A stretch of 64,000 bases of DNA from positions 62,001 through 126,000 of the forward strand of contig NZ_FNBO01000008.1 of NCBI RefSeq assembly GCF_900102375.1. The letters are read 5' to 3'. A model generated the notes under the pieces. That model was not told the DNA's origin. It saw only the letters and a list, made by a program, of their open reading frames with translations, and did not search any database. The stretch comes from Halorubrum xinjiangense. GTDB taxonomy: Archaea > Halobacteriota > Halobacteria > Halobacteriales > Haloferacaceae. The stretch's first letter is position 1; the number at the start of each line of letters is the position of its first letter. Both the position numbers and the translations under genes were made by a program. This document shows, in pieces, positions 22,997 to 37,795 of the stretch.

Positions 22997-24277
22997 ATGA
23001 GCGCTCTCGAAAGCGACGAGTACCGCGCGTTCCGCCGCGACCTCCACCGCCACCCCGAGCCGGCGTGGCGCGAGTTCTACACCACCGCCCGCATCGTCGA
23101 GGCACTCCGCGAGCGCGACCTGACGGCGCTTCACGTCGGGCCGGAGGCGTTGGCGACCGACGAGCGCCTGAACGTCCCCGACGACGAGGAGCTGGCGGAG
23201 TGGGAACAGCAGGCCCGCGAGGCCGGCGCCGACCTCGAAATCCTCGACCAGCTCTCGGGCGGCTACACCGGCTGCGTCGCGGTCGTCGAGCGCGGCGACG
23301 GCCCCGTGGTCGGCCTGCGGGTCGATATCGACGCCCTCCCGATCACGGAGTCGGAGTCCGACGACCACGTCCCGGCCGGGGAGGGGTTCCGATCCGAACA
23401 CGAGGGGTTCATGCACGCCTGCGGCCACGACGCCCACGCGACGATGGGGCTCGGCGCGCTCGACGCCGTCCTCGACTCCGACTTCGCCGGCACGCTGAAG
23501 GTGTTCTTCCAGCCGGGCGAAGAGCAGGTCGCCGGCGGGAAGCCGATGGCCGAGTCGGGGCACCTCGACGACGTCGACTACCTCTACGCGGTCCACGTCG
23601 GCTTAGATCACCCCTCGGGCGAGGTCGTCTGCGGCGTCGAGGGGTTCCTCGCGGTGCGACACTTCCTCGCGGAGTTCTCCGGCGAGCCCGCGCACGCCGG
23701 CGCGCGCCCTGAGCAGGGCCGGAACACGGTTCAGGCGATGGCGGCCGCCGTCCAGAACCTCTACGCCATCCCGCGGCACGCGGACGGCCCCACGCGGGTG
23801 AACGCCGGGCTCGTCGGCGGCGGCACCGCGACGAACATCATCCCCGAGGAGTCGCACATCGAGGGCGAACTGCGCGGGCAGACGACGGACCTCGCGGAGT
23901 ACATGTCCGAGCACGCCGACCGGGTCCTCGACTCGGCCGCCGAGATGCACGACTGCGAGGTCGACGTCTCCACGCTCGGCGAGGCGCCCAGCGCGACGAG
24001 CGACGACGCGCTCGCCGGCCTCGTCCGCGAGTCCGCGGGCGACGTGGCGGGCGTCACGAACATCGTCGACAGCGACGATCTCGGCGGCTCGGAGGACGCC
24101 ACCTACCTCATGAACCGCGTCCAAGAGCAGGGTGGGCTCGCCTGCTACCTCGGCGTCGGCACCGATCACCCCGGCGGCCACCACACGACCGATTTCGACG
24201 TCGTCGAGGACGACATCGGGATCGGCATCGACGTGATTGCCGGCGCGATCCGGCGCGTCGCCGAGACGCGGCCGTAG
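22997..24277 (+). CDS. M20 family amidohydrolase (N-acyl amino acid/aminobenzoyl-glutamate hydrolase-like)
   Basis: 426-residue zinc peptidase-like amidohydrolase. Metal ligands and catalytic residues are visible: FRRDLHRHPEPAWREF at the N-terminus, VGLRVDIDALPI, FMHACGHDAHATMGLGA, QPGEEQVAGGKPM, and the C-terminal GTDHPGGHHTTDFDVVEDD. The dimerisation lid runs from about residue 210 to 330 (AHAGARPEQGRNTVQAMAAAVQNL). It resembles AbgB and hippurate hydrolases more than true aminoacylases. The ATG is at 22997, with GTTTAAG at 22969-22975 as TATA-like box. It would hydrolyse N-acyl or amide bonds in the cytoplasm. Confidence 0.9.
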   Translation: MSALESDEYRAFRRDLHRHPEPAWREFYTTARIVEALRERDLTALHVGPEALATDERLNVPDDEELAEWEQQAREAGADLEILDQLSGGYTGCVAVVERGDGPVVGLRVDIDALPITESESDDHVPAGEGFRSEHEGFMHACGHDAHATMGLGALDAVLDSDFAGTLKVFFQPGEEQVAGGKPMAESGHLDDVDYLYAVHVGLDHPSGEVVCGVEGFLAVRHFLAEFSGEPAHAGARPEQGRNTVQAMAAAVQNLYAIPRHADGPTRVNAGLVGGGTATNIIPEESHIEGELRGQTTDLAEYMSEHADRVLDSAAEMHDCEVDVSTLGEAPSATSDDALAGLVRESAGDVAGVTNIVDSDDLGGSEDATYLMNRVQEQGGLACYLGVGTDHPGGHHTTDFDVVEDDIGIGIDVIAGAIRRVAETRP

Positions 24278-24324: not shown

Positions 24325-24830
24325 TTTTATAAGCGAATGCGGTGGCGCGCGCCTCCGAGCGGCCGCCTCCGGCGGCCGCGAGGAGCGCGTGCGAGGGACG
24401 CCGCGAACGCCCGCAGGGCGTGAGCGGCGAGGCTGGGGAGGCGTGAGGTGCGGTTGCTGTGCGGGGCGGGACTCAAAGGGGCAGCCGCGAGGCGGGCGCA
24501 GGCGTTCACGAGAGCGGAGCGCTCGTGAGCCAATCAGAACGCTTCGCGTTCTGATGACGACGCAAGCACCACAGGGAGCGAGCAGCGCAAGCGAACGAGG
24601 AGCGTGGCTCGAGAGGGCAAAGCTCTCTCGTCATCGCCAGAAATCGGAGATTCTGGCTAGCTGCCAGACTCCTCCGGAGTCTGGCAACATCACAAGACGC
24701 CTTCGGCGTCTCGAACGACAGCGAGCGTGCGCCCGCCTCCCGACTGGGGCTTCGGTGATGTCGGTGTCGATCGGCCATTTATAGGTAAAAGCGTGCGGCC
24801 GAGCGGCTGGGCTTTGGAAGCGTTCGCCGC
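24325..24830 (+). repeat. Palindrome-rich structured intergenic element, copy A
   Basis: About 510 bp without a conserved reading frame, homologous in layout to 37361-37795. A TATA box (TTTATAA, 24326-24332) precedes block 1, GTGGCGCGCGCCTCCGAG (24342-24359). Block 2, GAGGCTGGGGAGGCGTGAGG (24429-24448), is identical in both copies. Block 3 holds CGAGGAGCGTGG (24596-24607) and CTCTCGTCATCGCC. Block 4, starting CGGCTGGG (24804-24829), ends with GGAAGCGTTCGCCG. Between blocks are perfect hairpins with three-base loops: ATCAGAACGC/GCGTTCTGAT with TTC; TGCCAGACTCC/GGAGTCTGGCA with TCC; AGACGCC/GGCGTCT with TTC; GCGGCCGCC/GGCGGCCGC with TCC; ACGCCC/GGGCGT with GCA. A structured RNA or palindromic mobile element is likely; I know no name for it. 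Confidence 0.75.
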
Positions 24831-25035
24831 CGATCAACGGTTAACCGCTTATAAATGAACGGCAGGAGCTTCGACAGACGGCATTGCGAAGCGGCCATCC
24901 GTAAGATGAGTTCTGACGTAGCCCTCCTCTTCGGAGATAGTAACAGCCGGTCGACTAAGAGTGCGTACTGAACTTCTGGATAGAACGAGTGAACGAACCA
25001 ATTGACAACTATAAGATGTCCACTCGGAAAATAAC

Positions 25036-37360: not shown

Positions 37361-37795
37361 ACTTATATATCAGGCCGTGGCGCGTGCCTACGAGGCCGCC
37401 CCGCGGTCGAGCCGGGAGGGACCTCCGGCCACTTTAGAAGCCGGCGCTTCGCGCCGGCGACTGACAGGGCGAGAGCTTCGCTCTCGCTTGCAGCCGGACG
37501 TAGTCCGGCGACGAGGCTGGGGAGGCGTGAGGCTGCGGTCCCGCGAGCGACCGGAGAGAGCGAGCGAGAGGACGGAAGTCGCAGCCCACGCAGCGAACGG
37601 TGCGAGGTGCGAGCGGAGCGAACGAGCGAGGAGCGTGGTTCGAGAGAGTTTCGCACTCTCGTCATCGCCGGAAGTCGGAGACTTCCGGCTAGCAGTCAGA
37701 ATCCATGGGATTCTGATAACCTCCCGAAAATCGGAGATTTCTGGCGACACCGAGCTGCGAGTCTTCGCGGCTGGGGATTTGGAAGTGTTCGCTGT
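37361..37795 (+). repeat. Palindrome-rich structured intergenic element, copy B
   Basis: About 435 bp, second copy of the element at 24325-24830, 13 kb away and in the same orientation. A TATA box (TTATATAT, 37363-37370) precedes GTGGCGCGTGCCTACGAG (37377-37394). The shared core GAGGCTGGGGAGGCGTGAGG is at 37513-37532, CGAGGAGCGTGG at 37627-37638, CTCTCGTCATCGCC just after, and CGGCTGGGGATTTGGAAG at 37768-37785. Hairpins: GCCGGCGC/GCGCCGGC and GCGAGAGC/GCTCTCGC, both with TTC loops; GCCGGAC/GTCCGGC with GTA; CCGGAAGTC/GACTTCCGG with GGA; TCAGAATCC/GGATTCTGA with ATG. Arms differ from copy A but remain complementary. No frame is conserved between copies. Confidence 0.75.

Follow-up and report, generated by a model that had tools for sequence, protein, structure and literature searches.

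The intergenic stretch at 24325-24862 of the analysed window, which covers 64,000 nucleotides of a 3.26-Mb Halorubrum draft assembly, is best explained, with middling confidence, as one copy (copy A) of a non-autonomous, fold-dependent interspersed repeat of haloarchaea. It lies behind an M20-type peptidase ORF (22997-24277, named from its sequence) on the same strand. The original prediction that the stretch is a structured non-coding repeat outside every described family was borne out: the core 17-mer GGCTGGGGAGGCGTGAG occurred 155 times in its own genome with up to one mismatch and the reversed control pattern not once, and the families of Rfam 15 gave no match in the whole window at the gathering threshold and a chance-level best match in the element (E 1.6) at a loose one. 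No description of the element was found in the literature on haloarchaeal repeats, REPs, MITEs and non-coding RNAs, and the exact core strings were absent from 5.39 million open-access papers, subscription journals lying outside the scope of the search. Kinship with 7SL RNA was considered, GCGGTGGCGCGTGCC and GAGGCTGGGGAGG seeming to resemble the eukaryotic molecule, and was dropped, Rfam giving no SRP match.

Anatomy of the family and of copies A and B

Reading of about 30 copies gave the order, from 5' to 3', of TGCGGTGGCG, hairpin P2, GAGGGA, hairpin P3, the invariant GAGGCTGGGGAGGCGTGAGG, a short G-rich spacer and GGGACTCAAAGGGGC, after which come the long helix P1, tipped by a rod, then GGGGCTTTGGAGG and the 57-bp tail units. 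The 5' module consists of P2, P3 and GGCTGGGGAGG, and the 3' module of a closing helix, a near-invariant, unpaired GGG/GGG internal loop between this helix and P1, P1 itself and the rod, with the tandem tail following in Halorubrum. In the rod, facing GA/GA steps alternate with short helices, so that the GAGCGAGCGAAGCGAGCGA-type low-complexity stretches inside the element are explained as rods of G-A steps. The closing helix covaries, being CAAAG/CTTTG in Halorubrum, GAAAG/CTTTC in most others and GGAAG/CTTCC in some.

In copy A, all features of which are given on the + strand, homology begins abruptly at TGCGGTGGCG (24338-24347), where the information content of 104 copies rises from about 0.2 to 1.6-2 bits. 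P2 (24345-24392) has outer arms GCGCGCGC/GCGCGTGC with one G-U pair, a tandem G-A step and an inner GCGGCCGCC-TCC-GGCGGCCGC hairpin; P3 (24398-24429), with loop GCA, was represented by 104 different left arms. The invariant block GAGGCTGGGGAGGCGTGAGGTGCGG (24429-24453), identified by the 17-mer, is followed by the block GGGGCGGGACTCAAAGGGGC (24463-24482), which in the fold alignments A1 and A2 described below contributes CTCAAAG as the 5' side of the closing helix, together with the first half of the G-only internal loop. The fold alignment places the 5' strand of P1 at 24482-24500 and its 3' strand, the GGGG half of the internal loop and the closing-helix strand CTTCGG at 24728-24755. The apical rod of P1, with short helices alternating with G-A steps, occupies 24562-24607 and was matched at 24558-24611 by R1, a covariance model of the 3' module with 123 positions that was used with a match cut-off of E<=1e-4.

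The five perfect inverted repeats with three-base loops that had been predicted are present at 24359-24379 (TCC), 24407-24421 (GCA), 24533-24555 (TTC, arms 10), 24662-24686 (TCC, arms 11) and 24695-24711 (TTC, arms 7), besides near-perfect palindromes at 24507-24527, 24610-24630 and 24637-24656, and both the folding of copy A (z = -5.2) and the loop lengths of its relatives showed that they are not due to chance. Their proposed role as the defining feature was not upheld, and neither was the reading of the terminal block as the element end, since CGGCTGGG (24804) is one unit of the 57-bp-period tail (24745-24862). The tail units open with (GG)CTGGG(G)CTTYGG, each is followed by a TATA-like site, and unit 2 starts at 24804. 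Of about 154 adjacent unit pairs, 127 were spaced by 57 bp, and the tail motif GCGGCTGGGGCTTTGGAGG occurred 261 times in the own genome with up to two mismatches. In locus L046 of the own assembly, a run of N (~1680-1750) falls within the tail array, and tail lengths in draft genomes are therefore probably underestimated.

The blocks of copy A recur as foreseen, at 37363-37795 on the + strand (copy B), with GGCTGGGGAGGCGTGAG at both 24431 and 37515 where shuffles expect 0. Copy B, which is chimeric or degenerate, contains the head, the invariant block, the apical rod, triloop hairpins and the tail and lacks GGGACTCAAAGGGGC. At 37534-37600, a second inserted module (of the form TCCCGCGAGCGACCG..GCAGCCCGCGCAGCGAACG..GCAGGAACGTCTTCCG in the longer copies) replaces or interrupts the spacer before GGGACTCAAAGGGGC; it is also present in L218, L224, L048 and L054.

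The conserved fold and its strand

Alignment A1 comprised 35 sequences aligned by sequence alone, with a consensus fold from RNAalifold, and alignment A2 comprised 57 matches from several families that were aligned to the model and hence biased towards it. The A1 fold contained 33 pairs, with 96.4% of cells paired against 81.1% after shuffling, double changes at 25 of the 33 pairs and a covariation score of 0.427 against 0.154 (reached in 0 of 500 shuffles); paired cells fell to 31-45% when the structure was slid along the alignment. For A2, which shares the bias of its model, the corresponding values were 95.6% against 70.3%, 31 of 33 pairs, and 0.550 against 0.149. A single standard copy folded with z = -8.2, and hairpin arms paired better within their own copy than when swapped between copies, with -25.8 against -14.4 kcal/mol for P3 and -36.3 against -28.7 kcal/mol for P2.

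Thermodynamics alone gives no strand choice, since stable folding was likewise obtained for the complementary strand of copy A (z = -6.3), as any palindrome requires. The ratio of G-U to A-C, which would be equal if there were no strand-specific selection, was 35:12 in A1 and 50:14 in A2 (p 7e-6 for the latter, p-values of the fold statistics being indicative only because related sequences are not independent events), and the + strand is therefore the folded one. These alignments show that one strand folds and that its fold is under selection. Of the structured RNA, mobile element or combination of both that had been proposed, the structured RNA or another folded single strand is supported by the strand-specific covarying fold; the wobble pattern is compatible with RNA and with single-stranded DNA, three-base loops are more typical of DNA hairpins, and the folded molecule would be one or the other.

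A second layer of hairpins lies upon this core. Among perfect hairpins with arms of at least 8 in 210 Halorubrum copies, the loop was exactly 3 nt in 239 of 308, compared with 3 of 83 in the flanks, and many of these triloop hairpins are palindromes that standard copies do not contain and that were inserted where P1, P2 or P3 ends in its tip. In copy A, such insertions are the near-perfect palindrome 1 (24507-24527), palindrome 2 with loop TTC (24533-24555) and four more within 24610-24711 (24610-24630, 24637-24656, 24662-24686 and 24695-24711). Each loop triplet is about as common as its reverse complement (GAA 38/TTC 33, GGA 27/TCC 22), and the inserted palindromes therefore favour neither strand, in contrast to the core. 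Core-less sequences dispersed in other genera are matched by the pair at 24501-24559 as well. The triloop hairpins are therefore largely a secondary population carried by the core; the palindromes look like an independent dispersed family, and template-switching events probably shape the inserted ones. In L060, L061, L063 and L066, from other haloarchaeal families, the triloop palindrome pair CAGAACGC..GCGTTCTG plus ACGAGAGC..GCTCTCG occurs without the core (~1450-1560), and in L061 the pair is nested in a CCCCGCC..GGCGGGG hairpin, maybe a transposon end.

The reverse-complement pairing of the loop triplets is also what would be expected if no selection acted at all, template switching perfecting the palindromes and covariation arising as a by-product. 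This is very improbable, since it leaves unexplained the excess of G-U over A-C, the conservation of both the G-A steps and the unpaired G loop, and the fold common to several families, and for the core it is largely refuted. Exactly three-base loops with free sequence, together with the regular 57-bp tail and the head-to-head pairs of other genera, could instead point to a chromosome element acting at the DNA level, as a nucleoid, replication or recombination site in the form of a hairpin or bound duplex. Such a role is quite unlikely, as the strand-specific wobble pattern is not expected under duplex recognition and sites are lost without obvious consequence.

The main rival to the interspersed repeat is a host-functional family of structured non-coding RNA, whose copies would be transcribed and whose folded RNA would act, for example, by binding protein via the G loop and G-A rod. 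Strand-specific covariation across several families, conserved unpaired G residues and class-wide retention speak for it, and the depth of covariation and the unpaired G residues fit a ribonucleoprotein just as well. The TATA-like sites count for it as well: 126 of 280 Halorubrum copies had a TTATAA in the 30 nt preceding them, compared with a background of 0.32 per kb. The predicted TATA box before the first block does exist as the TATA-like TTTTATAAG at 24325-24333 (+ strand), outside the element, and its role as the element's own promoter was rejected. The distance to the element is variable and mostly 11-21 nt, and a start site at the sharp 5' boundary would need a larger spacing; moreover, the TATA is missing from about half of the copies and was not seen upstream of the few 5' modules read in other families. 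The upstream site may reflect a target preference or a co-inherited flank.

Distribution, gene context and site turnover

A search with copy A by blastn yielded many matches in all 22 other genomes of the genus, with H. tebenquichense, trapanicum, distributum, sodomense, lipolyticum, kocurii and coriense among the named hosts, and weaker matches in other families. Of 212 haloarchaeal genomes, 161 had an R1 match, representing 57 of 68 genera; the class-wide copy numbers per genome are lower bounds because at most 16 candidates were scored in each, and a deeper search of ten genomes gave 4 to 92 matches each. The blocks are not confined to the window. Plasmid records of Halorussus, Halobaculum, Haloarcula, Natrinema and others carry the element, with no annotated feature under the matches, whereas phage records contained none and IMG/VR viral contigs none for the one exact pattern tried. 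In genera other than Halorubrum, it is common for the 3' module to occur singly or as two head-to-head units separated by about 30 nt, and the full 5' module was found in L376, L380 and L390. Head-to-head pairs in L378, L387, L389, L394 and L399 lie near 1200-1620, and the spacer of about 30 nt in such 3'-only pairs has a recurring GGCTGRCCAACCGG-like centre.

Gene context was assigned for 196 copies with a simple heuristic gene caller based on acidic composition and third-position GC. Convergent genes flanked 58 copies, tandem genes 115 and divergent genes 23, a pattern that has been called parasitic for BOX elements (PMC3049150). One or both neighbouring genes ended at 173 of the 196 copies, which would suit a terminator or stabiliser at mRNA 3' ends. 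That function is unlikely, since copies between tandem genes lie equally in either orientation (54 with the genes, 61 against) although the selected fold is on one strand only, and the blocks read contain no U-tract. For the interspersed repeat, by comparison, the absence of an orientation preference counts in favour, and gene-end position, lack of orientation preference and variable copy number together fit an old, BOX-like non-autonomous element.

Comparison of orthologous loci, made on stretches around copies and on the corresponding sites of relatives, revealed presence and absence between species, with empty and relic sites. Ten other Halorubrum species carry the element at the site of copy A or immediately beside it, one of them as a deletion form; one species has an inverted element, and others have none or a relic. 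When 30 own copies were mapped to two syntenic relatives, the element was present at about 25 sites in G043 and about 11 of 29 in G039, the remaining G039 sites being short intervals and relics. In the G039 loci L181, L182 and L120, heads, tails or single hairpins are left and many copies have apparently been lost, so that this genome offers a naturally depleted line in which function could be tested. Derivatives with a hairpin deleted between direct repeats were found in L220 and L125; the L220 copy (G043) lacks the whole P1 hairpin and is joined at flanking GGGGC direct repeats, GGGACTCAAAGGGGCTGGGGCTTTGG.

Same-site copies of the own genome (G000) and G043 were no closer in their 5' part than random copies (0.77 against 0.76) and only slightly closer in their 3' part, with flanks 93% identical. 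The 5' flank is conserved right up to the first base of the element and the interior differs, as would be expected if copies exchange sequence or hairpins turn over very fast. L039 and L054 were considered as private recent insertions and rejected, both sites being common to other species, and there is therefore no proven recent insertion. Neither a target-site duplication nor a fresh insertion was seen, the empty sites being too diverged or replaced for a duplication to be read. For the mobile-element part of the original prediction, empty and relic sites stand in support, recent mobility was not seen, and site sharing, loss and turnover dominate.

For a host-functional RNA, the 51 of 212 genomes without an R1 match, the many sites lost in G039 and the widely varying copy number (88 or 92 against 4-7) are unfavourable. 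It is possible, though we hold it tentatively, that an unrecognised RNA family spans the class at tens to more than 100 copies per genome and serves the host, selection maintaining it as sequence is reshuffled from copy to copy.

Relation to known repeats and proposed propagation

BOX elements of Streptococcus pneumoniae (Croucher et al. 2011) are modular, high-copy, intergenic and convergent-enriched, with a predicted folded RNA and an internal module of variable number; their convergent-gene context has been argued to mean parasitism, and an old proliferation with low present mobility was described (PMC3049150). The haloarchaeal element shares all these behaviours and is likened by behaviour, not by boxA/boxB/boxC sequence. 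BOX hardly occurs beyond pneumococcus and S. mitis, apart from relatives in S. suis (PMC3049150), whereas the haloarchaeal element spans an archaeal class with deep covariation. With REP/BIMEs, which are associated with RAYT (TnpA-REP), it has in common foldback units that are extragenic and strand-specific and frequently form inverted pairs; an opposite-strand neighbour lay within about 350 bp at 12 of 28 non-Halorubrum loci (L372-L399). Its units measure about 120-400 bp, whereas REP units measure 20-40. A RAYT/Y1 transposase as partner was rejected: the Y1 family PF01797 is absent from G161 and G172, which carry 88 and 40 matches, and 1 of 15 Y1 loci had an element match.

Like MITEs, the element is non-autonomous, dispersed, strongly folded and present or absent between relatives; in contrast to them, it is GC-rich, its sharp 5' end has no matching inverted 3' end, so that no terminal inverted repeats delimit the unit, and no target duplication was found. 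Rickettsia palindromic elements and mitochondrial GC clusters are small palindromes tolerated at the tips of structured RNA, and the inserted triloop palindromes behave like them but differ in being haloarchaeal and in having loops of exactly three bases. Among these systems, pneumococcal BOX elements and REP/BIMEs are closest in behaviour. The element is a new family of a known kind, the structured interspersed repeat, and is unusual in its class-wide range, covariation depth and content exchange at fixed sites.

The interspersed repeat would thus work like BOX or BIMEs without belonging to either. Its copies lie outside genes, mostly beside 3' ends, are kept long at their sites and are lost by deletion, and their sequence changes as though copies recombined with one another; short triloop palindromes accumulate at helix tips, where they leave the fold undisturbed. 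The fold may be kept because the element's own propagation needs it, a trans factor presumably recognising the folded strand, whether RNA or single-stranded DNA, via the invariant G loop and the G-A rod. Spread would be old and slow, and ectopic conversion among copies would then shuffle modules in often polyploid cells. Copy number with class-wide spread, covariation in both alignments, the strand bias, the unpaired G loop, empty and relic sites, deletion derivatives and same-site copies no closer than paralogs favour this explanation. Against it stand the missing target-site duplication or fresh insertion, the negative search for a partner gene, the viral contigs negative for the exact pattern, retention over most of the class for so long, which is unusual for a plain parasite, and the intactness of nearly all sampled pairs, where a fold serving spread alone should decay in old copies.

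If copies average 300-500 bp, the element makes up about 1.5-2.5% of its own genome. A large share of haloarchaeal genomes that has escaped annotation thus appears to consist of this element, whose covariation signal is very clear and for the annotation of which a covariance model is ready. It offers a natural case of inherited sites whose contents are exchanged among copies. Either a highly successful parasite of the genome or a structured RNA new to science could be at work, and the element makes it testable whether archaea possess their own class of fold-dependent elements or an abundant structured RNA.
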